Positions 6,947 through 37,146 of a stretch of DNA of 63,826 nt are shown here, one piece after another. The number at the start of each line of letters is the position of its first letter. Position 1 is the stretch's first letter. Made by a program: the position numbers and the translations under genes. The notes under the pieces are model-generated. The model did no database searches. It was not told the origin of the DNA and worked only from the letters and a program-made list of their open reading frames with translations. Source of the DNA: Clostridia bacterium (GTDB lineage Bacteria; Bacillota; Clostridia; Oscillospirales; CAG-272); NCBI GenBank assembly GCA_017472695.1, contig JAFUOQ010000021.1:1-63826 (forward strand), read 5' to 3'.

Positions 6947-6955
6947 AAAGCAGAA

Positions 6956-6981
6956 AAACAGACCCTCGGGTCTGTTTTTTA
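6956..6981 (+). terminator. Rho-independent terminator
   Basis: CAGACC / GGTCTG stem with a 4-nt loop, then TTTTTT, directly after the zinc-ribbon gene. Confidence 0.85.
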
Positions 6982-7010
6982 TGCTAATGACACAAATCTA
7001 AAGTAAAACA

Positions 7011-7040
7011 AAAGAGTGACTCTTGCGAGCCACTCTTTTT
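7011..7040 (-). terminator. Terminator of the 7049-8863 lipoprotein gene
   Basis: AAAGAGTG / CACTCTTT inverted repeat beside the stop codon of the minus-strand lipoprotein gene. It has U-rich runs on both sides and could act in either direction. Confidence 0.7.
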
Positions 7041-7048
7041 TAGTTGAA

Positions 7049-8863: not shown

Positions 8864-8899
8864 TTTACCTTTCTCCTTTAAAAATAAATTGGTATTATA

Positions 8900-8928
8900 A
8901 TTATAATACAGAAATAGGAGTTTGTCAA
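8900..8928 (-). promoter_or_regulatory. Sigma-A promoter of the lipoprotein gene
   Basis: On the minus strand: TTGACA (8923-8928), 17-bp spacer, TATAAT (8900-8905). Confidence 0.8.
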
Positions 8929-8980
8929 CAATTTTCCCAAAATTAGGCAACTTCGATAAGCGTGCGCTAATAAAAAGAGA

Positions 8981-9007
8981 GGGATTTGACACAATTAGCC
9001 AAATCCC
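8981..9007 (-). terminator. Terminator of the EF-G-like gene
   Basis: GGGATTTG / CAAATCCC stem followed on the minus strand by CTCTCTTTTTATT; it lies 10 bp past the stop codon of the gene at 9017. Confidence 0.8.
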
Positions 9008-9016
9008 TTTAGTTAA

Positions 9017-21280: not shown

Positions 21281-21346
21281 AAAAGCTCCTAGGTGTGCAA
21301 TTAATGATTTAAGTATAACACAACAAATTTCAAGTGTCAATTGGTA

Positions 21347-21375
21347 TTGACATTTACATTAGTAAATGATAAAAT
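21347..21375 (+). promoter_or_regulatory. Promoter of the GH29 gene with a built-in palindrome
   Basis: TTGACA (21347-21352), exactly 17-bp spacer, TAAAAT (21370-21375). The spacer is almost filled by an 18-bp inverted repeat, CATTTAC-ATTA-GTAAATG (21351-21368), so a repressor bound there would block RNA polymerase. Confidence 0.75.
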
Positions 21376-21416
21376 CTAAATAGTTTAGTAAAAATACAGA
21401 GCCAAAGGAGAATAAA

Positions 21417-22712
21417 ATGAGTATTCAAAGCGAAAGAACAGAAAGAACAAAGGAATATTGCAACGATCGATTTGGTATGTTTATCCATTGGGGACTTTAC
21501 GCAATCCCTGCGGATAACGAATGGATTCGTTCTAGAAATAAATTGTCAATCGAGGACTATCAACCATATTTTGATACCTTTGATCCAGTAAACTATGATC
21601 CTAAAAAGTGGGCAAGGCTTGCTAAAAAAGCAGGCATGAGATATGCGGTTTTGACAACAAAGCATCATGACGGCTTCTGCTTGTTCGATAGTAAATATAC
21701 AGAGTATAAGGCAACTAATACACCAGCGGGACGCGATCTTGTAAGAGAATATGTTGATGCCTTCCGAGCAGAGGGAATAAAGGTGGGCTTCTATTACTCA
21801 CTTCTTGACTGGCATCACCCTGACTATCCCGCATATAACGATATGCACCATCCAATGAGAGGCAATGATGCATATAAGCACCAAACCGGAGAGCATTTTG
21901 AGAGATATGTTGAATATATGCACAATCAAGTAAGAGAGCTTCTTACAAATTACGGCAAAATTGATATTATGTGGTTCGATTTTTCATATGGCGATATGAC
22001 CGCTGAAAAATGGCGCGCAACTGAAATGGTTAAAATGGCGAGAGAGCTCCAGCCACACATTATAATTGACAATCGTATGGGTGGCGACATCACCTCTGCC
22101 GAGCCGGAGTTCTATTCGGGCGACTTTGCATCTCCTGAGCAGATGATTCCTGCTTGGGGCGTACGCGATGTTTTTGGCAATCCTGTTCCTTGGGAAACCT
22201 GTATTACCCTAAATAACCACTGGGGATATAGTGCAAAGGATATGAACTATAAGAGTGCGAAAAATGTAATCAATATGCTTATGGAATGTGTAAGTAAGGG
22301 CGGAAACCTACTCCTGAACGTAGGGCCTGATGCAAAGGGCAACATTCCAGACAAGAGCATAGAAATTCTCACCGAGGTAGGAGTGTGGATGCGTCTGAAC
22401 TCTGAAGCTGTTTATGGTTGCGGAATTGCAGATATTCCAAAGCATGATTGGGGAAGGATTACAAAGAGCGATGATGCGCTTTACCTCTATATTCAGGATA
22501 CCTGCTGCGAAAACATTGCACTTTACGACTGCCCGTATAAAGCGAAAGGTGCTGTGCTTTTGGCGGATGGAAGCTACATAAGCATGGAAGAGCCTTGGAA
22601 CGCACATAGCTACAAGGCTAATGGAAAGAAACCACTCTTTATGGAAACTCCGGAATTTAGAAACCTAAATGGCAATGCAAACGTAATAAAAATCTATCTA
22701 GATAAGGAATAA
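21417..22712 (+). CDS. GH29 family alpha-L-fucosidase
   Basis: A 431-residue retaining fucosidase. The family start block RFGMFIHWGLYAIPA, the TTKHHDGFCLFDSKYT block and the nucleophile region IDIMWFD are present, as are GGNLLLNVGPDAKGNIP and the C-terminal beta domain. No signal peptide is seen, matching a cytoplasmic role. AAAGGAG precedes the ATG. With the divergent GH95 gene it forms a small fucosyl-glycan unit; no transporter or fucose catabolic gene is next to it in the window. Confidence 0.94.
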   Translation: MSIQSERTERTKEYCNDRFGMFIHWGLYAIPADNEWIRSRNKLSIEDYQPYFDTFDPVNYDPKKWARLAKKAGMRYAVLTTKHHDGFCLFDSKYTEYKATNTPAGRDLVREYVDAFRAEGIKVGFYYSLLDWHHPDYPAYNDMHHPMRGNDAYKHQTGEHFERYVEYMHNQVRELLTNYGKIDIMWFDFSYGDMTAEKWRATEMVKMARELQPHIIIDNRMGGDITSAEPEFYSGDFASPEQMIPAWGVRDVFGNPVPWETCITLNNHWGYSAKDMNYKSAKNVINMLMECVSKGGNLLLNVGPDAKGNIPDKSIEILTEVGVWMRLNSEAVYGCGIADIPKHDWGRITKSDDALYLYIQDTCCENIALYDCPYKAKGAVLLADGSYISMEEPWNAHSYKANGKKPLFMETPEFRNLNGNANVIKIYLDKE

Positions 22713-22718
22713 TTTTTA

Positions 22719-22749
22719 AACAGACTGTCCACATAGACGGTCTGTTTTT
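22719..22749 (+). terminator. Rho-independent terminator after the GH29 gene
   Basis: CAGACTGTC / GACGGTCTG (one G-T pair) with a 6-nt loop and TTTTTAT. Confidence 0.88.
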
Positions 22750-22802: not shown

Positions 22803-22831
22803 TTGACAATTTATGTCCTTTTTGTTAAAAT
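22803..22831 (+). promoter_or_regulatory. Promoter of the MoxR/VWA operon
   Basis: TTGACA (22803-22808), 17-bp spacer, TAAAAT (22826-22831). The 13-mer ATTGGTATTGACA (22796-22808) is identical to the one at the GH29 promoter (21340-21352). Confidence 0.8.
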
Positions 22832-22870: not shown

Positions 22871-24628
22871 ATGGAAAATAAGCAAGATAAAAATCCAGAA
22901 ATATTCCGTCCCGAGGGTGAAGGTAAGATGGGCACTAATCGCTCCACAAATGTCGAAGCGATAGCACAGCTTGTAGTAAAAAAGGCTTTAGAGGAAAAGG
23001 AAGAGCGAGAGGCAAGCGCTCAAAAAAGCTCAAGGCTGAAGCTTAAAAAAGCTGAATACACACCGCCAGAAATACTTTTGCCAAAGGATAATTCAGAAAA
23101 AACAAAGAAAAAATATCTTGGCTTTGGAAAATATGAAAGAAAGCTAAAGCAAGCAAGGTGCATAAAATCGCTCCTTGGTGGACTAGCCTTGTCATTCCTT
23201 GTAGGGGGCATCTTGTTGCTTCTTATGAAAATTAACGAGTGGCAAATCAATCCGGTCATTATTCTATCTTCAATGGTGGGTGCATTTTTAATAGCGTTTC
23301 TCCCTATTTTCCTTACACATAGGATAAATGATAAAAAGGTCGCTAAAGCGATTGATGAAAAATTCGGCTTGAAGGAAAGAGCATCAACAGCTATCGAGTA
23401 TCTAGATGACGACTCTGATATGAATGTCCTTTTAAGAAATGATGTGAGGAGCATTGTTGAAGGGATAGATGCAAGGGCTGTTAAGGCGTTTAAGCTTATC
23501 ACCATTTACATATGTGCCTTTGTCCTCGGTCTTACAATGCTAATAGTTGGCGTTGCATACCCAACCAAGGATGATAACGCTGGCTCGGACACAAGTGAGG
23601 AAGAGAATAACACAATTTTCGTCTTGACCGAGGAGCAAAAGGACAGGCTGAACGAAATTAAAGCAAGCGTTGAAGCCTCGGATATGGAGGAAACGGCAAA
23701 GCAAGAGGTCGTAGAGGAAATCCAGAGCTTGACTTTAGTGCTTGATACGGTTCAAATGCTCAAATCAGACGCAATTGACCTTATTAAATTAACAACCGAA
23801 AAAATAGATAAGATAACAGATGAAACAGGCTCACAATCCGAATTGTATACAGCTCTTAAAAATCAAGATTCTGCTTATACAAGAGAGTTTGCCAGACTTC
23901 TTACTAAATACGATTGGGAAAAGCATTTAATTAAGCGCGCAGATATACAAGAGCTGTTTAGACACAAGGATTTTGGCAGCGATGTTGCCGACCTTGATCA
24001 AATTGAGTTAGATACGATTATCGCTTTAAATAACGCATCTACACAAATGAAGAAGGCACTTGAAAATTCAGGCGTTGATGCAAGCGACCCACTTTATGAT
24101 TTGCTTTATAGATTCACCTATGAATCCGACCCTACAAACAAGGAAACGAAGGGAGAGGGACTTTACGGTACACAGGAAATTGCAAACGAAATGGAATATC
24201 TCTCATATAGGTGGGCGCAAAACAGACTAGACGATTTGTTCTCGATTCTTGGTGAGGATATTTATAGAGAGCTGGATGCTCAAAACGTAAACTATTCAGT
24301 TGGCTTTGACGCATCAAACGACATTCGCTCACTCTTTGGACTTCCAAAGGTAAACAGAGAGGATAATTCAAAGGAAGAGGATGAGGAAACCGAGAAGGAT
24401 AAGGAGCCACCGGAGGGTGCAGACGGTGGTTTAGGTGACGGAAACGTGTTTGGTAGCGACGATGCCATTTACGACAAGGAAGAACTAAATCATATCGCTT
24501 ATGGCGAGGTAATTGATAGATATTATATCATTATGGGCAATGCAGAATATACCGAGGAGCAGAAGGCGAAGATTCAAAAGTATTTTGAAACCCTGTTCAG
24601 AGGACTTGAAGAGAAAGATGAGGAATAA
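22871..24628 (+). CDS. Membrane protein with coiled-coil segment, first gene of the MoxR/VWA operon
   Basis: A 585-residue protein. The basic and acidic N-terminus (about 1-95) has no signal peptide. Two hydrophobic segments (about 110-135 and 140-160) and a third near 210-230 flank the block GLKERASTAIEYL, which resembles the N-terminal part of DUF4175 proteins found in MoxR operons of other phyla. A long acidic, helical, probably coiled-coil region follows (about 245-500), then a linker rich in Glu, Asp and Gly. The ATG at 22871 is preceded by GAAGGG. It is 3 bp from the moxR start. It may form the membrane scaffold of the complex; that is inference. Confidence 0.8.
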   Translation: MENKQDKNPEIFRPEGEGKMGTNRSTNVEAIAQLVVKKALEEKEEREASAQKSSRLKLKKAEYTPPEILLPKDNSEKTKKKYLGFGKYERKLKQARCIKSLLGGLALSFLVGGILLLLMKINEWQINPVIILSSMVGAFLIAFLPIFLTHRINDKKVAKAIDEKFGLKERASTAIEYLDDDSDMNVLLRNDVRSIVEGIDARAVKAFKLITIYICAFVLGLTMLIVGVAYPTKDDNAGSDTSEEENNTIFVLTEEQKDRLNEIKASVEASDMEETAKQEVVEEIQSLTLVLDTVQMLKSDAIDLIKLTTEKIDKITDETGSQSELYTALKNQDSAYTREFARLLTKYDWEKHLIKRADIQELFRHKDFGSDVADLDQIELDTIIALNNASTQMKKALENSGVDASDPLYDLLYRFTYESDPTNKETKGEGLYGTQEIANEMEYLSYRWAQNRLDDLFSILGEDIYRELDAQNVNYSVGFDASNDIRSLFGLPKVNREDNSKEEDEETEKDKEPPEGADGGLGDGNVFGSDDAIYDKEELNHIAYGEVIDRYYIIMGNAEYTEEQKAKIQKYFETLFRGLEEKDEE

Positions 24629-24631
24629 AAA

Positions 24632-25639
24632 ATGAATATGACAGAAAATACAACAAATCAATTAGAAAAGGTAAAAGCATTTAGCGAAAAGGTTACAAAA
24701 ATCAAGGAAGAATTAAAGAAGGACGTTGTTGGTCAAAAGGAAATTATTGACAACGTAATTATTGCAATAGTTGCAGGTGGTAACGTTCTTTTGGAGGGCG
24801 TACCGGGAGTTGGTAAGACTCGTTTGGTTCGTTCACTTGGTAGAGTTCTTTCTCTCCCATTCTCGCGTATTCAGTTCACTCCTGACTTAATGCCATCTGA
24901 CGTTACAGGCGCAAATATTGTTGAAAAGGACGAAAATGGTAAGCTAAATACATCATTTAGAAAGGGTCCTATCTTTGCTAATCTTGTTCTTGCTGACGAA
25001 ATCAACCGTGCAACTCCAAAAACACAATCAGCTATGCTTGAGGTGATGCAGGAGCACAAGGTTACAGTAGGTAATGACGTACATAAAATTGCAGAGCCAT
25101 TCTTTGTATTGGCTACTGAAAACCCAATCGAGCAGGATGGTACATATCCACTTCCAGAGGCACAAATGGACCGTTTTGTATTCAAGCTTATAGTTAACTT
25201 CCCATCCGATGATGAGCTTGCAGATATTGTTAAAATGACTCAAATTACTCTTGACGAAACAGCAACAGCTGTAATCAATGGCGAGGAAATTCTTGAAATG
25301 AGAAGGCTCGCATCAGGCGTTGTGGTTTCTGACGAGGTTCTTATGTATGCAATAAGACTTGTATCAGGTACCCACCCAGAGCTCGAAAAATCTTGCCCAA
25401 GCACAAAGAAATATGTAAAATATGGCGCATCTCCTCGTGCAGGTCAGGCACTTATCACCTGTGCGAAGGCAAAGGCGCTTATGGAGGGCAGATACAATGT
25501 TTCTTATGACGACATAAACGAGCTTGCTTATCCAGTACTCCGTCATAGAATAAAAATCAACTTTACAGCAGTTAATGACAAGCTAGGTGTTGACGACGTA
25601 ATTTCAATGATAATAAAGGAGACCAAGAAGGTTCACTAA
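24632..25639 (+). CDS. MoxR-family AAA+ ATPase
   Basis: A 335-residue MoxR ATPase. Walker A is GVPGVGKT (56-63), Walker B is LVLADEINRATPKTQSAML, and the sensor block ATENPIEQDGTYPLPEAQMDRF is intact. MoxR proteins work as chaperone-like remodelling ATPases together with VWA-domain partners. It is followed after 1 bp by the DUF58 gene and then two VWA genes, the standard partner set. Another ATG two codons in is also possible. Confidence 0.95.
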   Translation: MNMTENTTNQLEKVKAFSEKVTKIKEELKKDVVGQKEIIDNVIIAIVAGGNVLLEGVPGVGKTRLVRSLGRVLSLPFSRIQFTPDLMPSDVTGANIVEKDENGKLNTSFRKGPIFANLVLADEINRATPKTQSAMLEVMQEHKVTVGNDVHKIAEPFFVLATENPIEQDGTYPLPEAQMDRFVFKLIVNFPSDDELADIVKMTQITLDETATAVINGEEILEMRRLASGVVVSDEVLMYAIRLVSGTHPELEKSCPSTKKYVKYGASPRAGQALITCAKAKALMEGRYNVSYDDINELAYPVLRHRIKINFTAVNDKLGVDDVISMIIKETKKVH

Positions 25640-25640
25640 A

Positions 25641-26525
25641 ATGAGTAAATTCACAATAAACGAGGAGCTTTTAAGCGAGATAGAGTCGCTACAAAGCATA
25701 CTCAAAAACAATGTTGCCGGTATGTTTGGCGGAAACCGTCAATCAAAAAGCTTCGGCTCATCGTGTGAATTTGCAGATTATAGAGATTATCTTCCTGGGG
25801 ACGATATTAACAGAATAGACTGGAACGCATATGCCAGATTCGACAAGCTTTATGAAAAGCTCTATTATGATGAAAGGCAGATGCATACAAGAATATATAT
25901 TGACGCAAGCCGTTCAATGTGTCACGGCAATGAGGAAAAGGCAAATCAAGCCTTGCGACTTGCCGCATGCTTGGCATATTTATCCGTTTGCGAAATGGAG
26001 AAGGTTTCAATCTATGCAATTCACGGCACAGAGCTTGAAGAGGTAATTGGTGGCATGGTGGGAAAGGAATCCTATCTAGGCTGTATCAGTAAGCTGAATG
26101 AAATAGAGTTTGTAGGAGATAGCCATATTAGTGAGGCTATTATTCCATCAAGCGTTGGCAGAGGCGACGGCTTTTCCATCATAATCTCCGACTTTTTGAC
26201 TGACGATAACTACGAGGGTGCTATTGACCACCTGGCTTCAAAGAAAAAGGACGTTATTTGTATTCAGGTTCTTGCGTCTGACGAGATAAATCCTCAAATA
26301 AGAGGAAAAATGCACCTCTTCGACTCCGAGGATGCAACAAAAGCATACCGTAAAAAGATAGATAATGATATTATCAAGGCATATAAATCTGCCTTGAAAT
26401 TCGTAATCGAAAGAATTAAGGATTATTGCGAGGCAAGGGGCGCATATTATCTTTTAGCGCCTGGAAATGCAACCATTGGCGATATTCTGTTCGGTAAAAT
26501 GGTAGATATGGGGGTGCTTAAATGA
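25641..26525 (+). CDS. DUF58 domain protein (MoxR partner)
   Basis: 294 residues, soluble. The DUF58 signature is clear: SFGSSCEFADYRDYLPGDDINRIDWNAYAR in outline, followed by a VWA-like fold with IYIDASRSM. This family is almost always encoded beside moxR. In B. subtilis the yeaC-yeaD pair is the counterpart. Its stop overlaps the next start by 4 bp (ATGA). The molecular role is unknown; it probably bridges the ATPase to its client or the membrane. Confidence 0.92.
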   Translation: MSKFTINEELLSEIESLQSILKNNVAGMFGGNRQSKSFGSSCEFADYRDYLPGDDINRIDWNAYARFDKLYEKLYYDERQMHTRIYIDASRSMCHGNEEKANQALRLAACLAYLSVCEMEKVSIYAIHGTELEEVIGGMVGKESYLGCISKLNEIEFVGDSHISEAIIPSSVGRGDGFSIIISDFLTDDNYEGAIDHLASKKKDVICIQVLASDEINPQIRGKMHLFDSEDATKAYRKKIDNDIIKAYKSALKFVIERIKDYCEARGAYYLLAPGNATIGDILFGKMVDMGVLK

Positions 26526-28402
26526 GCTTTATGTATCCTCTATGTCTTCTCGCCCTTTTGGGTGTTCCGGTTGTCATTTTAATTTACATATTAAAAAGAC
26601 ATTATACGGAGCAAACCGTTAACTCCACATATATTTGGACTCTTAGCGAAAAGTTCCTAAAAAGAAGAAACCCATTAAGTGGACTAACAGGCATAATTTC
26701 ATTAATTTTGCAAATTTTAATGATTGTTTTAATCACATTTGCACTTATCCACCCAATAATCAAGCTAAATGACCAAGCAGAGAGATACTGCTTTGTTGTC
26801 GACGCCTCCGCTAGTATGAATATGGAAACAGATGGAGAAACAAGGCTTGACCGTGGAAAAAAGGAAATAGAGAAGATTATTTCCTCGTCAACAAAGGGTA
26901 GCGAGTACTCGCTTGTTTACGTTTCCGACGAGGCAACAACTGCCTTTGAGCGCGTTACAAGTAAGGAAAACGCACTTGAGCTTCTTGATGAAGTAAAGCC
27001 ATCATATTCAGGCTCAAATTATATTGATGCGTCAAGTGTAGCGCAGGAGCTATTTAATCAAACTCCATCAATTAATGTTTATCTAATCACCGATAAAACC
27101 TTTGTCCATAGACAAAATGTTACGATTATAAATGTAGCGAAGGATGAAGGCAATGTCGGCATGACCTCATTAGAGGTGCTTCTTGAGGACGGTATAATCA
27201 AGGTTAAGGGAATTTTGAATTCCTACAAAAAGCAAAGCACCGTCAATGTAGATATTTACGTTGACGAGGTAGAAAGCCCTGTTGCAAGCACAACAGTGGT
27301 GACCCCACCACTTAAGGAGATGCCAGCAGGAATGGATACTCCATTTGAGGTTCCTCCTATTCCATTTGAAAAGGAAACCTATACAAGCGTAAGGGCTGTG
27401 ATAAGAGAGGCTGACTCCCTCCTTGAGGATAACGAATATATCGTTTATAACAAGGAGAGCAACAAGCAAAGCTCTATAATTATCATAAGCGAAACACCGT
27501 TTTTCCTAGAGGCAGCTATTCATTCCATAGGAGATTATAGCATCACAGCTGTATCACCTGAGGAATACGAGGCTAAATATAAGGATAGTGCGTTTGGCTT
27601 GTATATATTTGACTCCTACACACCGGATACCACACCAAATAATGGCGCGGTTTGGATGTTAAATGCAAGCGAGAGTGCAAAAAATTCAGGCTTTAGCTAT
27701 CGCTCGAAGGTTTTACTTAAGGAGCCTGCTAATTTAGAAAGGTCAACCGACTCATCAACCCTTGCAAGAAAACTGCTAAACGGCGTTGATTTGACGGACA
27801 CATACCTTATTGAATATTTGAGATATAGCACCTACACAAGCTACACAACTCTATTTTCAGTTGCTGGAACACCGCTTGTTATGGCGGGAGAAAATGCATA
27901 TGGCAACCGTTCAGTTGTCTTTGCCTTTGACCTACATAACTCAAATATTCCAATGTCGGGCGACTATGTAACCCTAATTGATAATTTACTTGCATACTCC
28001 TTCCCCAGCGTGCTTGAAAAAACAGGCTATTTTGTTGGAGATATGGTGACAGTAAATACCGTTGCCAACTGTGAGAGCGTTAAGGTTGTTTCTCCTCTTG
28101 GTGACACAAAATATTTAGACACAGCTCAAACCTTAAATGAGGTTTACCTCAATCAAATAGGCACTTATACAGTTAATGTGACGGTTGGTGGCGTATCAAG
28201 TGAGTATAAGCTTTTTTCAGAAGCACAGCTTACAGAGCGCACACCTATCTCGGTTGAGCAAAACTTTAGTATATACGGTACACCGAGCAATGACCGTATA
28301 GACGGAGAATATGACCCAATGATTATCATATTTATCCTTTTGATAGTAATTTTTGCGGCGGATTGGATGGTGTATATGTATGAAAAACGTCAGCTTCGAT
28401 AA
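26522..28402 (+). CDS. BatA-like VWA-domain membrane protein
   Basis: A 626-residue protein with an N-terminal membrane anchor (about 5-25), a second membrane segment (about 58-80), then a VWA domain beginning FVVDASASM, where DxSxS is the metal-ion-dependent adhesion site. A long beta-rich part follows, and a C-terminal membrane segment (about 595-615) closes it. This is the plan of aerotolerance-type BatA proteins fused to an extracellular domain. The C-terminal coding end overlaps the next gene by 23 bp in another frame. Confidence 0.88.
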   Translation: MSFMYPLCLLALLGVPVVILIYILKRHYTEQTVNSTYIWTLSEKFLKRRNPLSGLTGIISLILQILMIVLITFALIHPIIKLNDQAERYCFVVDASASMNMETDGETRLDRGKKEIEKIISSSTKGSEYSLVYVSDEATTAFERVTSKENALELLDEVKPSYSGSNYIDASSVAQELFNQTPSINVYLITDKTFVHRQNVTIINVAKDEGNVGMTSLEVLLEDGIIKVKGILNSYKKQSTVNVDIYVDEVESPVASTTVVTPPLKEMPAGMDTPFEVPPIPFEKETYTSVRAVIREADSLLEDNEYIVYNKESNKQSSIIIISETPFFLEAAIHSIGDYSITAVSPEEYEAKYKDSAFGLYIFDSYTPDTTPNNGAVWMLNASESAKNSGFSYRSKVLLKEPANLERSTDSSTLARKLLNGVDLTDTYLIEYLRYSTYTSYTTLFSVAGTPLVMAGENAYGNRSVVFAFDLHNSNIPMSGDYVTLIDNLLAYSFPSVLEKTGYFVGDMVTVNTVANCESVKVVSPLGDTKYLDTAQTLNEVYLNQIGTYTVNVTVGGVSSEYKLFSEAQLTERTPISVEQNFSIYGTPSNDRIDGEYDPMIIIFILLIVIFAADWMVYMYEKRQLR

Positions 28403-31112
28403 TCCGTACCTATTACTGCTAGCAATTCCACTTTTGCTCCTTATCATAATTCCTTTTGCAATAGCGATAAGAAAGGAAAACAGGAGTAAGAGCGCAGTTG
28501 CATCATTTATAATTCATATCGCGATTGTTGTGCTTGTTTCCCTTGCCGCAGCAGGAACAATGATAACAACAATTCTTACAGAAACTACCGTTTATGTGGT
28601 GGCAGACGTTTCATATTCCTCAAATAGAAATCTTAATGCCGTTGACCATTATATAAACGAGTTGAAAAGCGATTTGCCAAAGAACACAAAGCTCGGGGTT
28701 GTTTGCTTTGGCGAAAACGCAGAGGTTCTTTACGAGCCAGGGGAAGCCCCAAAAAGCGTAAAGGAATCAAATGTTATTGATTCAAGCACTAATATTGTAA
28801 ATGCCTTGAGCTTCACAAAGGAGCTTTTCAAGGATGACACAATAAAGAAGGTGGTTCTTATCACAGATGGTAAGGACACGGACACAAGTGCAAGAGGTAA
28901 ATTAGTTGCCGAGGTTGAAGCCCTTGAGCAAAAGAATATAACGCTTGATGCAATCTTCCTTGATAACAATTTGAAGGACTCCGAAAAGGAGCTCCAAATA
29001 TCAGATGTTGAATTGACGGATTCAGTATATTTAGGCAAGGACTCACAAGCAAAGGCACTCGTGCAGGTTAACTATGACGGAATGATTAAAGTTGTTATGT
29101 CGGTAAAGGAGCCAGATAGTGACGAGTATGTTGATTTGCCTTACACAATGCAAGAGGTGTATCACGGCTACAATATGATAGAGCTTCCGTTAAAGACCGA
29201 CAAAATAGGTGTTTATGACTACAAGATAAAGGTTAGTAGCACAAACGATATTTGGGAGCAAAACAATACATATACCTTCGCACAAGAGGTAAGTAGCGAC
29301 TTAAGAGTTTTATTGCTCACAGGCTTGGAAACCGATATTGAGGCAATAAACGAGCTTTATGAGGGCAGGGCGCAAATTGATTCATTCCTTGTTAATGATA
29401 AGGTTAAAAACGAAATTCCTTATACAATAGAGGAGCTATGCAAATATGATGAATTTATAATCTCAAATGTAGATATAAGAAATGTTACAAATATTACATC
29501 ATTCTTAAATTCTGTTGAGATTGCAGTTTCACAATTTGGCAAAACCTTGACCACAATGGGCAACCTTGAAATCCAAAACAAGGACGATGGTACTCTTGGC
29601 TCACTAGGTGAAATGCTCCCTATAAACTATGGAAACGCAAATGGCAATAAAAAGCTTTATACCTTGGTTCTTGATACCTCACATAGTATGAACCAAGCGT
29701 CCAAGCTTCCAACAATGAAGGAGGCTGCAAAATCGCTCCTCTCACTGCTTTCAGACGAGGACCATGTTTGTATCGTTACCTTCTCGGGTGACGTAGAAAC
29801 ACTTCAGCCACCTGTTGAGCTAGGACCAAAAAGAGAAGAAATCAATGAAATGATTGATGGACTCTTGCCGTCACAGGGAACCTTCCTTGGCACAGGTCTT
29901 GAAAGAGCATTAGACCTTGCAAAGCTTTATGATGCAAAGGAAAAGCAGGTTATGCTTATTTCCGATGGTAAAACAAACGACTACGATATAAACGGAGAGC
30001 TTGTTGCTTCAAAAATGAACGCATATGATATTGTCGCATCGACAATAAATATGTTAAATACATCAGATGAGAAGGCATCAAAGCTACTCGAAAGCATTGC
30101 AAAAAAGACGGGCGGAACCTATTATCCTGTTTCTAGCCTCTCTAAAATTGACGAGCTTGTTTTCTCTGAAATAGCAGAGGAAATCACGGATGCAATTGTC
30201 GAGGAGGAATCAAGGGTAAATATCGCTCAAATCAAGGACGGAATATTGCTCGGCAACGCAAAAACTCCAAACGACGACATTTCATATATTGATAATATCT
30301 TTGGCTTTGTTCAAACAGGTGAAAAGCTTGATGCAACAGTTGTTTTAACTGTTGATTACCTCAAGGACAAGGAAGAGGAAATCATTGTACAAGTTCCACT
30401 TTATTCATATCGTGATTATGGTAATGGACGAGTTGCTACCTTTACAAGTAGCCTGTCAAACGGCTGGCTTGATGGCTGGAGTGACGAATTTAAGAGCCTT
30501 TTCTTTGGAAATATGCTAAATGAGAATATTCCAAAGGATAGAGTACAATATCCATTCACTGTTGATGTGGAATATGATGGAATGTACACAAGAGTTATGA
30601 TTACTCCTGCATCATTACGTACGGATGCACAGGCTCTAGTGAAAATCACCTCACCCAGTGGCGAGATTTTGACATTAATCCCAACACAAGCTGATGGTGA
30701 TGAGTCAAGCGAGTACACATCAATGCTCTTTGATACTCAAAAATATTACTATGACCTAAAAACTGACGAGCTTGGTAGATACGACATTGAGCTTGTATAT
30801 AACTATGCTATTACAAATGATGGAGAATATCTAAAGTCGGTTAATGCTAATACATTCTTTAATATTTCCTATTCACCGGAATATAACGCATATGAGGTGT
30901 TCTCACCATCAAGCCTACACGCATTTGTTAAGGGCGAGGTGGCAGATGGTAGCGGTCTTAAGATTACAAATGACGAAAAGGATCTTGCAACTTATGAATA
31001 CCGCTTTACAATTCCATTCTTAATTATAGCAATGGTGCTCTTTATCATTGATATTGCAATAAGAGTACTGAAATTCAAGAAAAAATCAAAGGCAAAAGGA
31101 GGAAGAATATGA
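28380..31112 (+). CDS. Large VWA-domain membrane protein
   Basis: 910 residues. Two N-terminal membrane segments (about 10-30 and 42-65) and a C-terminal one (about 880-900) enclose two VWA-type regions. The first begins VYVVADVSYSS, where DVSYS fits DxSxS; the second begins YTLVLDTSHSMNQAS near residue 430, an intact DxSxS site, with IVTFSGDVE following. The start at 28380 is the first ATG before the membrane segment and lies inside the previous gene. A glutamine-amidotransferase-like layout is known in related proteins, but no catalytic triad is seen here. Confidence 0.87.
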   Translation: MKNVSFDNPYLLLLAIPLLLLIIIPFAIAIRKENRSKSAVASFIIHIAIVVLVSLAAAGTMITTILTETTVYVVADVSYSSNRNLNAVDHYINELKSDLPKNTKLGVVCFGENAEVLYEPGEAPKSVKESNVIDSSTNIVNALSFTKELFKDDTIKKVVLITDGKDTDTSARGKLVAEVEALEQKNITLDAIFLDNNLKDSEKELQISDVELTDSVYLGKDSQAKALVQVNYDGMIKVVMSVKEPDSDEYVDLPYTMQEVYHGYNMIELPLKTDKIGVYDYKIKVSSTNDIWEQNNTYTFAQEVSSDLRVLLLTGLETDIEAINELYEGRAQIDSFLVNDKVKNEIPYTIEELCKYDEFIISNVDIRNVTNITSFLNSVEIAVSQFGKTLTTMGNLEIQNKDDGTLGSLGEMLPINYGNANGNKKLYTLVLDTSHSMNQASKLPTMKEAAKSLLSLLSDEDHVCIVTFSGDVETLQPPVELGPKREEINEMIDGLLPSQGTFLGTGLERALDLAKLYDAKEKQVMLISDGKTNDYDINGELVASKMNAYDIVASTINMLNTSDEKASKLLESIAKKTGGTYYPVSSLSKIDELVFSEIAEEITDAIVEEESRVNIAQIKDGILLGNAKTPNDDISYIDNIFGFVQTGEKLDATVVLTVDYLKDKEEEIIVQVPLYSYRDYGNGRVATFTSSLSNGWLDGWSDEFKSLFFGNMLNENIPKDRVQYPFTVDVEYDGMYTRVMITPASLRTDAQALVKITSPSGEILTLIPTQADGDESSEYTSMLFDTQKYYYDLKTDELGRYDIELVYNYAITNDGEYLKSVNANTFFNISYSPEYNAYEVFSPSSLHAFVKGEVADGSGLKITNDEKDLATYEYRFTIPFLIIAMVLFIIDIAIRVLKFKKKSKAKGGRI

Positions 31113-32797
31113 TAAACGCAAGAAAAATAATAGCCTTGCTTATGTCTATTTTATTCATTTTCTCCTTGGTTGCCTGCGGTACATATAATCCCGCAATTAA
31201 CTCAAATACAGACACAGATTCAAGCACAAATACAGACACAGGGCTTGACCAAAGCACAGATTCAGATACCGATTCAAGCACGGCTCCAAAGGAAGAAACA
31301 GGCTTCTCGGACGATGCCTTTACGGTTATGCTTCGCTATAATGGAGAGAAGTACATACCAGAGAAAGAGATCATAGTTTATTGGAAGAATGACAACACAC
31401 TTGAGTCATGTGCTATAAACAACTATGGCTATGCCGGTACAGAAAAGCTTGATGGTGACTATCGCGTTACTCTTTCAAGCGTGCCGGAGGGTATGGCTTA
31501 TAATCCAAACGCATATACTGCGACAAACGACGAGAGAAATCTCATAGTTGATATTTACGATTTAAACACAACCAAGGGCAAGGGTCGTGACCCTTATAAT
31601 GGAATTAAGCTAAATAAAACTGCAGTTTATAGTGTTACCTTGAATAGCAAGGACCACGTGGTTTATTTTGACTTCACACCAACCGCAAATGGTATGTATA
31701 CAGTAGAGAGCTGGATGGATACAACCGAGAACAAGTATAATCCTTATTGTGATGCATATACAGGCTCTGTTGCATTTAAGCTCTTTGATAAAACCATTGA
31801 TGGTGGTGGCGCAGAGGGCATTTACACAAAGAACTTCAAAAACGGAATTGATGTAAATGACGATATGATAGGAAATGTGCTTACCTTTGGTATTCACGTA
31901 GATAGCGAAAGTGTTGAAAACTATCCTGTAACTGTTGTTTTTGCAGTTCAGCTCAATGGTAGCTTTGATAAAATCACTAACCACGAGTACGATATGTATG
32001 TGCCGGAGGATCCTTATGCATATAAGGCAGGCTGTATCACCTATGGCTCTGATTATAAAATGGTTTATGCAGAGGAGCCAATTCCTGGCAGAGAAGGCGC
32101 TTATATGTTCAAAGAGGATAGCTATAGGCTCTGGAAGAAGTCAGAGGGCGGAGATGGCTACTACCACGTTTATGACGAGGAAAAATATAGCATTGCCAAT
32201 TATCCAAACGGATATATGGATGGTTACCCCGAGGGCTATGGACCTATTCTGTATGCAAGCATAAGCGTGCCTTGCCGATTCCTTGATAGACCATTTACAA
32301 ACTTCGAGATAGAGAGCAAGCCATTATCTATTAAGGTTAGTGACGATTTAAGGGTCAACTATAAGCACTTTATAGAAGGCTACTCCTCATTAGCAACCAG
32401 AATGTACGACCCAGCAATGGGTGGCTACATTTCAAGCTATTATTGCTTCAAGGGCTGTCCTTGCCACCCGGATGACCAAATTTATGATTTCGTTTGCCTT
32501 GAGGGCTGTACAAAATGCCTTGACGAGTGTCGCCAAATGAAGAAGGAATTTGTCTTGGAATATGACGAAAACGGAAAACCTATTTCCTTCTTTGAAGGAA
32601 TTCGAGCATATGCAAACATAGACGGTGGAGTTGCGGTAACAGAGGAACTAAAAACCTTCCTGTACAGGTTGAGCGTTGCGCAAAGATATTTTGCCGACGG
32701 AGAGGGTTGGGTTGAAACAAATGATAAGCTCAGCGTAGATGCCTCGGATGAGTCACAATGGCTATTTGCATGCTACTATTATGAAAAAATAAACTAA
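31109..32797 (+). CDS. Lipoprotein with C-terminal cysteine cluster, last gene of the VWA operon
   Basis: A 562-residue predicted lipoprotein. The signal peptide ends in the lipobox LVAC (Cys23). A Ser/Thr/Asp-rich linker (about 28-60) follows, then a beta-rich mature part. Near residues 448-475 lies a dense cysteine cluster, CFKGCPC, then CLEGCTKCLDEC, with a His between, resembling a metal-binding site. It overlaps the preceding VWA gene by 4 bp and has AGGAGG, so it belongs to the operon. I recognise no family; a surface client or partner of the VWA proteins is the simplest guess. Confidence 0.82.
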   Translation: MINARKIIALLMSILFIFSLVACGTYNPAINSNTDTDSSTNTDTGLDQSTDSDTDSSTAPKEETGFSDDAFTVMLRYNGEKYIPEKEIIVYWKNDNTLESCAINNYGYAGTEKLDGDYRVTLSSVPEGMAYNPNAYTATNDERNLIVDIYDLNTTKGKGRDPYNGIKLNKTAVYSVTLNSKDHVVYFDFTPTANGMYTVESWMDTTENKYNPYCDAYTGSVAFKLFDKTIDGGGAEGIYTKNFKNGIDVNDDMIGNVLTFGIHVDSESVENYPVTVVFAVQLNGSFDKITNHEYDMYVPEDPYAYKAGCITYGSDYKMVYAEEPIPGREGAYMFKEDSYRLWKKSEGGDGYYHVYDEEKYSIANYPNGYMDGYPEGYGPILYASISVPCRFLDRPFTNFEIESKPLSIKVSDDLRVNYKHFIEGYSSLATRMYDPAMGGYISSYYCFKGCPCHPDDQIYDFVCLEGCTKCLDECRQMKKEFVLEYDENGKPISFFEGIRAYANIDGGVAVTEELKTFLYRLSVAQRYFADGEGWVETNDKLSVDASDESQWLFACYYYEKIN

Positions 32798-32945: not shown

Positions 32946-35900
32946 ATGAAAAGGAAATTAACACTTGTTGTATGTGTTATTGCTACATTAGCAATGATCT
33001 TTACACTCGCTTCCTGTGGCGGTAGTGATCATACACATACATATGCGCAAGAGTGGAGCTCCAATGATTACGGTCACTGGTACGCAGCTACCTGTGGTTG
33101 TGAGGGAGAAACCGCTAACTATGGCGCACACGTCGATGCCGACAAGAATGGTGTTTGTGACACATGTGCTTATGTTACATGTACTCATGAATACGAAACA
33201 GAATGGCAAAGCGACGAAACACATCACTGGAATAACTCTTCTTGCGGATGCAATGTAAAGGGTTCATACGGTGAGCACATTGATGACGACAAGAATGGTA
33301 TTTGTGACACATGTGAATATGTAATGTGTGAACATGAATACGAAACAGAGTGGTCAAGCGACGGCGAAAATCACTGGCACGCACCAACCTGCGGATGCGA
33401 TGTTGACAATGCAGATGTTGCAAAGCACGTTGATACAGTATTTGACGGCGTTTGTGACGTTTGTGGAGCAGTTATCTGCGCACACGCAGATGACGACAAG
33501 GACGGCATTTGTGATAATTGTACATATGTAATGTGCACACACGAATTTGCAAAGACTTGGAAAACAGATGAAAAGGGACACTGGCACGAGGCTACATGTG
33601 GCTGTAACGTAACTGATGGTTATGCACTTCATGAAGATAAGGTTGGCGGTGAAAACGGTGGCAAAGACGGTAAATGTGATGTATGTGAATACGTTCTCTG
33701 CACACACGAATTTGCTTCTAAATATTCAAAGAACTCAACCAAGGCTTATCACTGGTTTGACGCAACCTGTGGTTGTGATGTAGTAAAAGGCAAAGAAGAG
33801 CACACAGACACTGACAAAGACGGTATCTGTGAGGTTTGTAACATGGAATCCTGCGAGCACACATATGCAGCTGAGTGGACAAGTGACGCAACAGGTCACT
33901 GGCATGCAGCTACTTGTGGATGCGAAATCAAGGGCGACTTTGCAGCACACACACCTGTAGTAGGTGAAACAAGCTCAGCTTGTGGAGTATGTGAATTTGT
34001 AATTTGTGCAGAGCACACATATAATAATTTCTATAACGCAATAACTGAAGAGCACTGGTTCGAGGCATCCTGTGGTTGCGATACCGTAAGTGGTAAAGCT
34101 AATCACGCAGACGACAACAAGGATGGTCTATGCGATGAATGTGCATGGACAGTTTGTGAGCATGAATTCGCAGCTGAATTGTCAAGCAACGAAACATCAC
34201 ACTGGTACAACGCAACATGCGGATGCTATGTAAACAATGGCAAAGCAGACCACGTTGATGAAGATGAAGATGGCGTGTGTGATACATGTACATTCAAGTC
34301 CGCAGTAAAGGACACAGTTGATTCACTCGATAGCGAGGCTTCACTCAATACAAACTCCACAGAATCAATAAAGGATAAGGGAGCTACCTCATCATACGAT
34401 AGCAGTTATACATATGAAGTATTAGAGGACGGCAGACTTTCTCTTTATAATGAATGGGGAGATATGCAATTTATGTATATCACCCTTACTGATGGTGTTC
34501 CAACCTTAATTGATGATGTTTATGGTAATGGAGAAAAAGCTCTTACACCTGTTGATGGAGAAGATGGAGCATATTATTATACAAAGGGCATATACACATA
34601 CATTATAAGAATTGACGATACAAGTAATATTGTAAATATAGAAACCGCTTGGTCAGCAGAAAAGAATAGTTACTATAAGGTTTACGATAACTATATTGTA
34701 GTAAGTGACATTTATGGTAATGTTAAATACTATTCATATTATGGCGAAAACGGCAAACTTCTTTTCGTTATGACTGTAGATGAATACGGCAATATCAACA
34801 GAGAAACTGACACTGCAGAGCCTGATTCAATAGCTAGCTACAGCGCTGTTAACTGGAATGTTAGTGCAAGCAACCACGAGGACTTTATTAAGGGTCTTTA
34901 TAATCTTGGTGTAAACGGCACAACCGACTGGGAAGGCAATGTTTACCCAAGCTATGGCTTTGTTGGCGCGGAGAATGAGGGAGTTTACTCCTTCTCATAC
35001 CTCTTTGTTGAGGGCTACAGCTGCTTTGTAGTAGAGGCATCCTTCACAGTTGATGCTGAAACAAAAGGTATTACAGCCGCAAATGTTACAATTAAGCAAT
35101 ATAGCGATAGCGATGTAACCTTAAATGCTGGTGCTGATACTTATGTGGTAGCAGATGAGGCAGAGGCAACTTCCTCCGAGACCTATGAAATCACTCAAGC
35201 ATTTGGCGACCCAATGGATTCAACAAGCAATCCTAACCCACATCCAGCAGCTAACTATATAGTTGACGAATATACAATTACTTATAATGGTGAAGTAGTT
35301 AATAATGGCGACACTATTGAGGCTGATGCTACCGAGTCAGTTGAACTAAACTTCGGTGAAGATGTTCTTGATATAATCAAGTATAACACCATTACCGTTT
35401 CTGCAACTTATGGTGAAGGCACAGAGCTTCCTTCTTATTGGAACACAATTGGTTCAATTACCGTAAATGAATACAATGATGCAAGACCTATCACCTTCAC
35501 AGGTAAGGTAGCAGACACATTCGTAATAACTATCGATGTAGAAGGCATAGTAACCACACTAACTATTAAGGTTAACTACCTAACACCAGAATCAATCAAC
35601 TCCGTTGTTTACGACGAGGATGACAACAAGGTTACAACAGATAACTACACAATTTACATGGGTCAATCACTTAAGATTACATCTTCAGTTGCAGCAGGAT
35701 GCAACCCAGCATATACAGCAACACTTCCTGCAGGCGCAGCTGCTGCTATTAAGGATAATGAGAATGGCACATGGACATTTACACCTGTAATGACAGGTGA
35801 CTTTGAAATCACACTTACTTCAGCCGCTGATGCTAACGTTTCAACTGTACTTAATGTAACAGTTGCAGAGCCACCGGCAATTAGCGATGTTTTAAGTGGT

Positions 35901-37082
35901 GAGCACACAGGCTCTAATATGTATTCAGGACTTACAGTAGGCGCTACATTTACTCCAAGTGAGGAAGGCGCTACTACAGGTAACGTAGTTGTTACTGTAA
36001 ACGGCGAAATGTTTAGCTATGCAACATGGGGCTGGGAAACTATTGAATACTCTGCAACATATACATATGCATACAATGATGAAACAGGCGCAATCGAGCT
36101 TACATATGTTGAGGGTGATGAGTTTACAGTTGAGCTAAATGTTGTTAACTACAAGATTGTAGCTATTTATGAGTTCAATGAATACAAGCTTGTACAAAAG
36201 GTTGTAGAGGTTCCGGCTGGCGATCCTACAGAAAGCCCAATTACTGTTACAATGACAGGCGCATACACATACTGCTATGAGTATACATTCACATTTGTAG
36301 CAGGTGAGGCAGGCTTCTATCAGTTCACAGTTCCAAGTGGCTTTGGTATATTCAGCGAGGCAGAATATCAGAATTATGGTCAGGCATACGTTGACTTCAA
36401 TGCAAATGGCGGAACATTCGTGCTTGAGCTTGAAGCAGGCCAAGTGCTCAACTGGCGCTTTGGTTCTCTCGAGGCGATCGAATATTCTGTAGAGTTTGAA
36501 TATTCAGCAACAGGATTTGAAAATACAACAGAAACATACGTTGTAGTAAATGAAAATGCTACACCTTCCGAGATTACAGTTACAGTTGATCCTAACGGAA
36601 CAATAACATTTGCTTTTGTACACCCAATGACAGGTATGTCAACTTCAGCTATCTACGAATATGAGCTCGTTGATGGCGTTATGACACTTTCTTTCGCTGG
36701 CAATCTAGTTGAGGCGGAAGAAGCATCAGTTACTCTTGTTGATGGAAAAGTAACAGCAATTGTATACTTCGGTAACGAGTATCTCGCTCAAGCCGAGAAC
36801 GAAACTATAAACGTTTCAGGCAACTACGTTGCAACAAATGAATTTGGTAATACAATTTCAGTTGTTATCACAGACGAAACAGTAACATTTAGCTATACAC
36901 ACCCAATGACAGGTATGCCATTTGAGGCACAATACGAATATGAAATCGTAGATGGCGCAATGGTTCTTTCACAAGGTGGAGTTGCAGTTGATGCAGCTCA
37001 AGCAGCTGTTACGTTGACAGATGGTGTTCCAACAGGCGCATCACTCAACGGCACAACATACACACTCGCAAAGGCTGAATAA
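32946..37082 (+). CDS. Giant lipoprotein with eight Cys/His repeats
   Basis: 1378 residues. The signal peptide ends in the lipobox LASC (Cys24). Residues about 29-452 hold eight full copies and one partial copy of a module of about 50 residues. Each has H-x-[YF], a W near its middle, HW, CGC, a spaced His, a DxDKNGxCDxC-type loop and a final Cys. The acidic loop resembles calcium loops of the thrombospondin-3 or dockerin kind, and the Cys/His set could bind zinc; both are inference. A beta-rich central part follows. About 1040-1145, 1207-1290 and 1291-1378 look like three related modules, the last two sharing HPMTGM. It is probably a surface protein. Related HW/CGC repeats occur in Clostridia surface proteins. 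Confidence 0.85.
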   Translation: MKRKLTLVVCVIATLAMIFTLASCGGSDHTHTYAQEWSSNDYGHWYAATCGCEGETANYGAHVDADKNGVCDTCAYVTCTHEYETEWQSDETHHWNNSSCGCNVKGSYGEHIDDDKNGICDTCEYVMCEHEYETEWSSDGENHWHAPTCGCDVDNADVAKHVDTVFDGVCDVCGAVICAHADDDKDGICDNCTYVMCTHEFAKTWKTDEKGHWHEATCGCNVTDGYALHEDKVGGENGGKDGKCDVCEYVLCTHEFASKYSKNSTKAYHWFDATCGCDVVKGKEEHTDTDKDGICEVCNMESCEHTYAAEWTSDATGHWHAATCGCEIKGDFAAHTPVVGETSSACGVCEFVICAEHTYNNFYNAITEEHWFEASCGCDTVSGKANHADDNKDGLCDECAWTVCEHEFAAELSSNETSHWYNATCGCYVNNGKADHVDEDEDGVCDTCTFKSAVKDTVDSLDSEASLNTNSTESIKDKGATSSYDSSYTYEVLEDGRLSLYNEWGDMQFMYITLTDGVPTLIDDVYGNGEKALTPVDGEDGAYYYTKGIYTYIIRIDDTSNIVNIETAWSAEKNSYYKVYDNYIVVSDIYGNVKYYSYYGENGKLLFVMTVDEYGNINRETDTAEPDSIASYSAVNWNVSASNHEDFIKGLYNLGVNGTTDWEGNVYPSYGFVGAENEGVYSFSYLFVEGYSCFVVEASFTVDAETKGITAANVTIKQYSDSDVTLNAGADTYVVADEAEATSSETYEITQAFGDPMDSTSNPNPHPAANYIVDEYTITYNGEVVNNGDTIEADATESVELNFGEDVLDIIKYNTITVSATYGEGTELPSYWNTIGSITVNEYNDARPITFTGKVADTFVITIDVEGIVTTLTIKVNYLTPESINSVVYDEDDNKVTTDNYTIYMGQSLKITSSVAAGCNPAYTATLPAGAAAAIKDNENGTWTFTPVMTGDFEITLTSAADANVSTVLNVTVAEPPAISDVLSGEHTGSNMYSGLTVGATFTPSEEGATTGNVVVTVNGEMFSYATWGWETIEYSATYTYAYNDETGAIELTYVEGDEFTVELNVVNYKIVAIYEFNEYKLVQKVVEVPAGDPTESPITVTMTGAYTYCYEYTFTFVAGEAGFYQFTVPSGFGIFSEAEYQNYGQAYVDFNANGGTFVLELEAGQVLNWRFGSLEAIEYSVEFEYSATGFENTTETYVVVNENATPSEITVTVDPNGTITFAFVHPMTGMSTSAIYEYELVDGVMTLSFAGNLVEAEEASVTLVDGKVTAIVYFGNEYLAQAENETINVSGNYVATNEFGNTISVVITDETVTFSYTHPMTGMPFEAQYEYEIVDGAMVLSQGGVAVDAAQAAVTLTDGVPTGASLNGTTYTLAKAE
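33030..34302 (+). repeat. Tandem coding repeats (eight full modules plus one partial)
   Basis: DNA coding for the Cys/His modules. Units are about 140-165 bp and have diverged at DNA level. The partial unit lies near 33480-33540 and keeps only the DDDKDGICDNC-type half. Confidence 0.85.
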
Positions 37083-37118: not shown

Positions 37119-37146
37119 CACACCGAGGCAACTCGGTGTGTTTTTT
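37119..37146 (+). terminator. Strong Rho-independent terminator
   Basis: CACACCGAG / CTCGGTGTG stem, GCAA loop, TTTTTT. Confidence 0.93.

Follow-up and report, generated by a model that had tools for sequence, protein, structure and literature searches.

A conserved seven-gene MoxR-VWA unit of uncultured gut Clostridia and its lipoprotein pair as candidate clients

Operons encoding a MoxR ATPase together with DUF58 and von Willebrand factor A (VWA) domain proteins are widespread, and most of their clients are unknown. The operon analyzed here lies on contig JAFUOQ010000021.1 (assembly GCA_017472695.1) of a Clostridia bacterium of the Oscillospirales; the whole 63,826-nucleotide stretch is referred to as the window. 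Six open reading frames (ORFs) run head to tail on the + strand from 22871 to 32797, with gaps of 1 to 3 bp or overlaps of 4 to 23 bp, and encode a membrane protein (gene 1), MoxR, DUF58, two VWA membrane proteins (VWA1 and VWA2) and a lipoprotein (lipo6; Table 1). The initial annotation, made from the sequence alone, had described a six-gene MoxR/DUF58/double-VWA set with overlapping or near-zero spacing, and position, gene content and spacing were borne out. Its idea of a single unit also stood, but the limit of six genes did not: the conserved unit consists of seven genes and extends to 37082, to include a lipoprotein with Cys/His repeats (gene 7).

Table 1. Coordinates of the seven-gene unit, of domains within it and of flanking signal-like sites
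Feature	Position in window	Strand	Basis and remarks
Terminator-like hairpin 5' of the unit	22718..22747	+	Consensus match only
Promoter-like site TTGACA-17-TAAAAT, TG before second hexamer	22803..22831	+	11/12, consensus match only
Gene 1, membrane protein	22871..24628	+	Hydropathy; profile, BLAST
MoxR AAA+ ATPase	24632..25639	+	Pfam; 3 bp gap after gene 1
DUF58 protein	25641..26525	+	Pfam; 1 bp gap after MoxR
VWA1	26522..28402	+	Pfam, NCBIfam; 4 bp overlap with DUF58
VWA2	28380..31112	+	Pfam; 23 bp overlap with VWA1
lipo6 (gene 6), 562-aa lipoprotein, no known family	31109..32797	+	4 bp overlap with VWA2
Seven-Cys cluster insert of lipo6, residues 446-474	32444..32530	+	Aligned homologues
Gene 7 (lipo7), 1378-aa lipoprotein, seventh unit member	32946..37082	+	ORF slot, lipobox, profile
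Cys/His repeats of gene 7, variable N-terminal module	33015..34289	+	Sequence, repeat profile
Gene-7 core domain, residues 534-1189	34545..36512	+	Iterated profile search
Terminator-like hairpin 3' of gene 7, 9-pair stem and T run	37119..37140	+	Consensus match only

The MoxR protein matches the Pfam family AAA_3 with 200.9 bits, and its relatives retain the Walker A motif in 81 of 81 and the Walker B motif DEIN in 80 of 81 sequences; it also exceeds the bpMoxR cut-off (62.3 bits, cut-off 27). DUF58 scores 86.6 bits with its Pfam family and keeps a DxSxS motif of the metal ion-dependent adhesion site (MIDAS) type in 77/79 sequences. VWA1 has a BatA N terminus (PF07584, 34.5 bits, cut-off 25.9; TIGR02226, 24.2 bits, cut-off 23.05), and hydropathy assigns it a BatA-type N-terminal anchor of two transmembrane (TM) segments, followed by the VWA domain and a C-terminal TM segment; DxSxS is present in 72/78. 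VWA2 comprises two TM segments, two VWA stretches and a C-terminal TM segment, with at least two DxSxS motifs in all 71 sequences and a GATase1_like stretch that matches weakly (18.8 bits, cut-off 27). These Pfam matches, together with the three TM segments each of VWA1 and VWA2, agree with what had been annotated for the four proteins. By the same hydropathy criterion gene 1 has three TM segments, DUF58 none and MoxR none that is convincing, and genes 6 and 7 each begin with a single hydrophobic segment followed by a lipobox-like Cys. No Pfam match to BatD or to tetratricopeptide repeats (TPR) was obtained up to E 1 with the seven window proteins; among 36 lipo6 relatives, one touched BatD at E 0.018.

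By hydropathy, gene 1 starts with a tail of ~100 aa, which is followed by two TM segments, a conserved loop of the type A..lD..f.L.E..qT..E...QR.DA, a third TM segment and a helical outer part, with a YG-rich C terminus containing GGxGxG. Other MoxR operons have a homologous gene 1 (hhalign probability 99.9). The likeness to DUF4175 that had been suggested for it proved weak and below cut-off throughout: the window protein is unlisted at E 1, three of 29 relatives match with a best E of 0.0068, and of seven gene-1 proteins from the next MoxR subtype described below, one reaches 16.5 bits (cut-off 27.3). LPG_synthase_TM is touched by 9/29 relatives (best E 0.00021), which we read as a general TM match. 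No Pfam or NCBIfam family scores above cut-off in gene 1, lipo6 or gene 7 (NCBIfam being searched with the window proteins), nor do gene 1, lipo6 and a core domain of gene 7 match Pfam or the Protein Data Bank (PDB) convincingly, known folds reaching E 0.013 or weaker.

To examine conservation we took the best 80 of 247 MoxR relatives found by a MoxR protein search of species genomes and counted a locus as testable when its contig reaches the place in question, which leaves 69 to 78 of the 80 depending on the gene. The order gene 1-MoxR-DUF58-VWA1-VWA2-lipo6 is present in every testable locus. By profile, gene 1 is found in 74/74, DUF58 in 78/78, VWA1 in 74/74, VWA2 in 72/72 and lipo6 in 71/71; BLAST from the window proteins alone places gene 1 beside MoxR in 72/74 and detects lipo6 in 69/69, counts that are the more independent because the profiles were partly built from the same loci. 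The alignments hold 56 (A1) and 36 (A4) of 72 lipo6 sequences, 29 of 73 sequences (A2) and 30 of 56 (A3). Gene order is therefore conserved far beyond chance, and the seven-gene unit is a real and tightly kept unit of uncultured gut Clostridia. Median identity to the window proteins falls from MoxR (76%) and DUF58 (66%) through VWA1 (41%), VWA2 (38%) and lipo6 (35%) to gene 1 (26%), and is 34% for gene 7 in the 12 loci with a long enough match. Such a drop from motor to surface would be expected of a conserved motor with surface parts that follow the habitat.

We also asked in which genomes lipo6 occurs. A profile that included the signal peptide was inflated, giving matches at E 1e-3 in at least 133 of 146 genomes of the family with seven of full length, and the trimmed profile A4 cured this. 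Full-length lipo6 (>500 bits) is present in 7/146 family genomes, the next match being one of 61 bits confined to the N terminus. A MoxR at least 73% identical to that of the window (the window-type or first subtype) is found in exactly the same seven genomes, on the same contigs and 6.3 to 6.7 kb away, start to start. The initial annotation had held that its proposed link would be contradicted if the lipoproteins occurred without the MoxR genes in most genomes; in the family, however, all seven genomes with full-length lipo6 carry the MoxR subtype on that very contig, and full-length lipo6 is present in 0/139 of the others. Across the class, full-length lipo6 and the subtype occur in the same 2/391 genomes, one of which belongs to another family and has the whole seven-gene order (L148, same assembly as L051). 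In a sample of the order that was searched for lipo6 only, it was found in 2/394 genomes, G000 and G089. Full-length lipo6 thus strictly co-occurs with the window-type MoxR subtype in the genomes sampled. The unit itself is patchy: G027, of the same genus and 97% complete, lacks full-length lipo6, and G000 and G089 have it, a distribution that suggests loss or transfer.

The next MoxR subtype, 58 to 66% identical to the window protein, was found at 19 places in 18 family genomes, only three of which have full-length lipo6, exactly those that also bear the first subtype. Gene 1, MoxR, DUF58, VWA1 and VWA2 are present in 10/10 operons of this subtype that were read and in the same order in 9/10, the exception being L135, where gene 1 comes after DUF58. 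None of the ten contains lipo6, with L134 and L135 extending ~0.4 and ~1.6 kb past VWA2. Because these operons share five genes with the window unit and lack lipo6, it is the lipoproteins that set the first subtype apart. One of the ten is a second MoxR operon of the window's own genome (contig C9, L087 3637-16807): gene 1, MoxR, DUF58, VWA1 and VWA2 follow in the same order and the MoxR proteins are 64% identical, but neither lipo6 nor gene 7 adjoins. Its gene 1 encodes an acidic protein of 1636 aa with a Gln/Asn-rich tail, and the presumably extracellular part of its VWA2, of 1258 aa, contains two Cys pairs that resemble zinc ribbons (CPGCG..CPDC and CKYC..CPSC). At two loci of the other subtype (L131 110-6063 and L136 10175-17001), lipoprotein-like ORFs of 929 to 1307 aa without the gene-7 core lie directly 3' of the operon, the last of them cut by the end of the stretch; the 945-aa ORF of L136 matches gene 7 of L068, in which the core is likewise missing. 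MoxR operons with large lipoproteins as neighbors may therefore be a wider theme.

Alignment of 72 lipo6 homologues showed that the lipobox Cys23 and the C-terminal Cys555 are each present in 72/72, and Tyr131, Gly195, Asn242, Phe517, Asp530 and Trp551 are likewise invariant; Glu536 is kept in 67/72. All of these residues fall outside the cysteine cluster for which the protein had been singled out in the initial annotation. The cluster is real but does not define the protein: it is all-or-none, with seven Cys in 36/72 homologues and zero in the other 36/72, and is an insert. Presence of the cluster goes with presence of the Cys/His repeat of gene 7 (repeat in 34/35 loci with the cluster and in 7/34 without it). 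We do not count this as evidence for co-evolution of the two traits, since a tree built on MoxR, DUF58 and VWA1, with 69/79 rows scored for both traits, places only four and three trait changes, so that the association is confounded by phylogeny, and independent pairs, too few for significance, give no support. lipo6 and the gene-7 core are not detectably homologous (hhalign probability 2.2). Lipoproteins with the lipo6 N-terminal domain occur at L137 5618-10918 (49.5 bits) and L138 2469-7162 (66.7 bits), each adjoining a lipoprotein of ~1000 aa and distant from MoxR, in genomes (G054 and G081) that both also bear the seven-gene unit. A second lipo6-like ORF (62.8 bits) lies 3' of gene 7 at a contig end in L080 (12760-13374).

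The Cys/His-repeat lipoprotein, initially placed behind the unit as a possible client, turned out to be tied to it more closely than first thought. In 67/69 testable loci the same-strand ORF that follows lipo6 is 400 aa or longer, and under a strict rule this slot has a lipobox in 63/69, compared with 22/132 other ORFs of such size in the same loci (Fisher p 5e-26, the rows not being independent); two of the six failures, L054 and L082, show a lipobox by eye. A core domain of ~600 aa is detected in 57/69, including gene 7s without Cys/His repeats. Elsewhere in loci L007-L086 the core gives two weak fragments of ~24 bits, in L079, where gene 7 is cut by the contig end, and in L033. The gap before gene 7 in the 57 core-bearing loci has a median of 97 bp and a maximum of 882 bp, and is at most 60 bp in 24. 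In all seven lipo6-bearing family genomes the slot is filled by a lipoprotein, of 716 to 1545 aa (1378 aa in the window). The core is 16 to 43% identical to that of the window, and weak immunoglobulin (Ig)-like matches occur among 30 gene-7 relatives (Big_3 and Invasin_D3 in 3/30, filamin in 2/30; best E 0.00063).

The repeats of gene 7, of the type HW..C.C...H.D...DG.C..C and ~50 aa each, are present in eight copies plus one partial copy. A profile made from the eight window copies and then iterated matches 41 gene-7 ORFs of L007-L086. Among the other mechanically called ORFs of these loci (3848 of at least 70 aa in all, 1246 of at least 200 aa), only a 998-aa lipoprotein encoded 77 bp upstream of gene 1 in L074 matches at E 1e-5. 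At six further loci (L027, L032, L044, L060, L068 and L075) a Cys/His lipoprotein of 360 to 408 aa is encoded from -3 to 193 bp upstream of gene 1; these six score weakly with the repeat profile (E 1e-4 to 2.4) and are interlinked by BLAST at 1e-8. Gene 7 lacks repeats in 5/6 of them and its core is undetected in 6/6, so the tail gene there is of another kind; L074 has the core. The Cys/His module is thus found either within gene 7, at the tail, or, at seven loci, as a separate gene at the head of the unit; that it stays with the unit in both arrangements hints at a role in the machine. Three more weak repeat hits fall within 10 kb, in L039, L019 and L041. Repeats outside gene 7 were found in 5/8 unit-bearing genomes versus 2/20 others (Fisher p 0.009), an exploratory comparison with hand-picked genomes most of which have a MoxR relative. 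Unit-bearing G089 gives zero hits at the threshold used and repeats occur elsewhere, so the module is neither exclusive to the unit nor universal. In the window's own genome, contig C26 (L093 2451-6749) encodes a 1432-aa surface-type protein with HW..C.C/DG.CD.C repeats near its C-terminal anchor, followed 3' by a lipoprotein gene (6811-9495); the repeat protein is a possible further client.

We compared the unit with described MoxR systems. The Bat operon of Bacteroides, Leptospira, Borrelia and Riemerella (MoxR-DUF58-VWA-TPR) has MoxR, DUF58 and membrane-bound VWA proteins of the BatA N-terminus type in common with the window unit, which differs in having no BatD or TPR match, in a VWA2 with two VWA stretches and in the addition of gene 1 and two lipoproteins. 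Bat functions are disputed and their molecular function is open (PMC5700661, PMC3557215, PMC11834572): deletion of bat in Leptospira biflexa is reported to leave morphology, growth and oxidative-stress resistance unaltered (PMC3557215), whereas deletion of batA in Riemerella is reported to lower survival under oxidative stress (PMC11834572). In Borrelia BB0173 the BatA-type VWA domain is described as facing the periplasm, and the same source groups cmdA-cmdD of Rhizobium leguminosarum, mutants of which show envelope and morphology changes, with the MoxR-VWA operons (PMC5700661). The window unit resembles the cmd operon in being of this kind. A BatA-type anchor is also part of CmdC, and CmdD contains a GATase-like part; to our knowledge the cmd operon has neither a VWA pair nor lipoproteins. 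By its domains the machine part of the window unit is of the Bat/Cmd kind.

For NorQD, the VWA partner is described as having a finger that the MoxR ring grips and twists; the MIDAS of the VWA domain is required for activity on the client, and the ATP-driven twisting serves metal insertion (PMC9976466, PMC13036017). The window unit likewise pairs MoxR with VWA partners and keeps MIDAS motifs in DUF58, VWA1 and VWA2, as far as DxSxS shows; NorD, however, is a soluble protein that acts on a single membrane enzyme, whereas the window VWA proteins are membrane-anchored and their putative clients are lipoproteins. For mycobacteria, a review reports that MoxR1, whose gene has DUF58 and vWA genes as neighbors, interacts with the cell-wall peptidase RipA and mediates its twin-arginine translocation (Tat) transport (PMC12067865). 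Here too MoxR adjoins DUF58 and a membrane vWA protein and an exported protein is reported to need MoxR1, but RipA is a Tat-exported peptidase, whereas the window has two lipoproteins, both encoded within the unit itself. In the PFNA cluster of Bifidobacterium (pkb2-fn3-aaa-atp-duf58-tgm), MoxR-DUF58 has a secreted FN3 protein as its neighbor, and the authors consider that MoxR possibly aids FN3 folding (PMC8430577). A large secreted surface protein thus adjoins MoxR and DUF58 in both, although PFNA includes a kinase and a transglutaminase and no VWA membrane proteins or lipoprotein pair are listed for it. With the precedents of RipA and PFNA, a MoxR beside an exported protein is not new; the lipo6/gene 7 lipoprotein pair is. 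A literature search that covered few subscription journals returned, from the text accessible, no lipoprotein client of MoxR and no description of the pair. One MoxR subtype with a strictly linked lipo6 and a mostly linked large lipoprotein would give the vague chaperone idea a named pair of candidate clients, and three protein groups without a convincing Pfam match (gene 1, lipo6 and the gene-7 core) are brought to attention.

As the most likely reading we propose that the unit encodes a MoxR-VWA machine of the Bat/Cmd kind whose dedicated task would be to assemble or activate a surface complex of two lipoproteins, a proposal we believe about as readily as we doubt it. MoxR would form a cytosolic ring and DUF58, as NorD suggests, would act as its VWA-type adaptor; gene 1 and the TM anchors of VWA1 and VWA2 would tie this motor to the membrane. 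The ATP-driven twist would be relayed through these anchors to VWA domains that, as in Borrelia BB0173, would face outward; their MIDAS sites may grip lipo6, which in turn would hold, fold, position or activate the surface lipoprotein encoded by gene 7, the presumed final client. We infer every contact in this chain from MoxR through DUF58, the VWA proteins and lipo6 to gene 7. The conserved order, the co-occurrence of lipo6 with the MoxR subtype, the lack of lipo6 in the next-subtype operons, the lipobox and core counts of gene 7, the Cys/His lipoproteins at tail or head, the outward fall in identity and the kept Walker and MIDAS motifs support the client reading, with NorQD as a precedent for the twisting, BB0173 for a periplasmic VWA domain and MoxR1-RipA for an exported client. 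The genomic coupling of the two lipoproteins is strong, and on this sequence-based ground they are good client candidates, the functional link being one that we infer.

Several observations weigh against this proposal. The lipo6 N-terminal domain also occurs in lipoproteins distant from MoxR; the gene-7 core is missing in 12/69 loci, including six of the seven with a Cys/His lipoprotein at the head, and under a strict profile (E 1e-8) it passes in four of the seven lipo6-bearing family genomes. Cys/His repeats are also found in other proteins, with one further place in the window's genome. Within the 148-bp gap between lipo6 and gene 7 there is a promoter-like site (10/12), so gene 7 may be expressed separately. 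The samples overlap as well, in that the loci were picked by MoxR similarity and at least five genomes share their assembly with a named locus, and the profiles were partly built from the loci searched.

The two lipoproteins might instead be parts or sensors that control MoxR in response to a ligand, a metal or wall tension, the true target lying elsewhere, for example in wall or membrane maintenance, as has been suggested for the Rhizobium cmd operon. This is possible but on balance unlikely. The presence of lipo6 at all 71 testable loci is more like that of a subunit than of a swappable client, gene 7 diverges as fast as a ligand-binding surface protein would, and the envelope and shape changes of the cmd mutants (PMC5700661) point the same way; yet next-subtype MoxR operons do without lipo6, so the lipoproteins are no general part of such machines, and Pfam recognized no sensor-type domain in the seven proteins or in the relatives of lipo6 and gene 7. 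We think it improbable that an ordinary envelope-maintenance MoxR/Bat operon shares its transcript with a surface adhesin pair and makes no direct contact with it. Hitch-hiker genes would be expected to be lost, or to stand alone, more often, whereas the co-occurrence of lipo6 and the MoxR subtype is complete in 146 and 391 genomes although the unit is patchy; in favor of an adhesin pair are the weak Ig-like matches of gene 7 and the secreted FN3 protein that Bifidobacterium keeps beside MoxR-DUF58 in PFNA (PMC8430577).

A metal-based version of the client reading strikes us as doubtful. The Cys/His repeats contain CxC, CxxC, His and a DxDxDG loop and would here bind metal outside the cell in the manner of zinc ribbons or calcium loops; the machine would load metal into the surface lipoprotein, or fold it, with the Cys cluster of lipo6 as a metal relay and other repeat proteins of the cell perhaps served in trans. 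We know of no surface lipoprotein that is loaded or folded through the membrane by a cytosolic ATPase. Least probable of all is a biological-conflict or defense system of the MoxR-VWA kind, to which the bpMoxR score and the patchy distribution (7/146) might point: AAA_3 scores far higher than bpMoxR, no beta-propeller or effector match was obtained with Pfam or PADLOC in the seven proteins, and the PADLOC matches to MoxR are of AAA type and to restriction enzymes at E 2e-6 or weaker, the other six proteins giving none.

After gene 1, the + strand has no terminator-like hairpin with such a long stem (9 pairs) until the one behind gene 7. The scan of the window returned 21 terminator-like sites versus 11.9 in shuffles and 59 promoter-like sites versus 46.6, so that single sites of either type are weak evidence. 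No gene is generally conserved upstream of gene 1, the largest shared family being present in 8/72 loci. Directly upstream in the window (18929-22712) lie an 803-aa - strand ORF, glycoside hydrolase-like by look, and an alpha-L-fucosidase (PF01120); among the 72 loci compared, relatives of these genes occur within 4 kb upstream in L007-L010 only.

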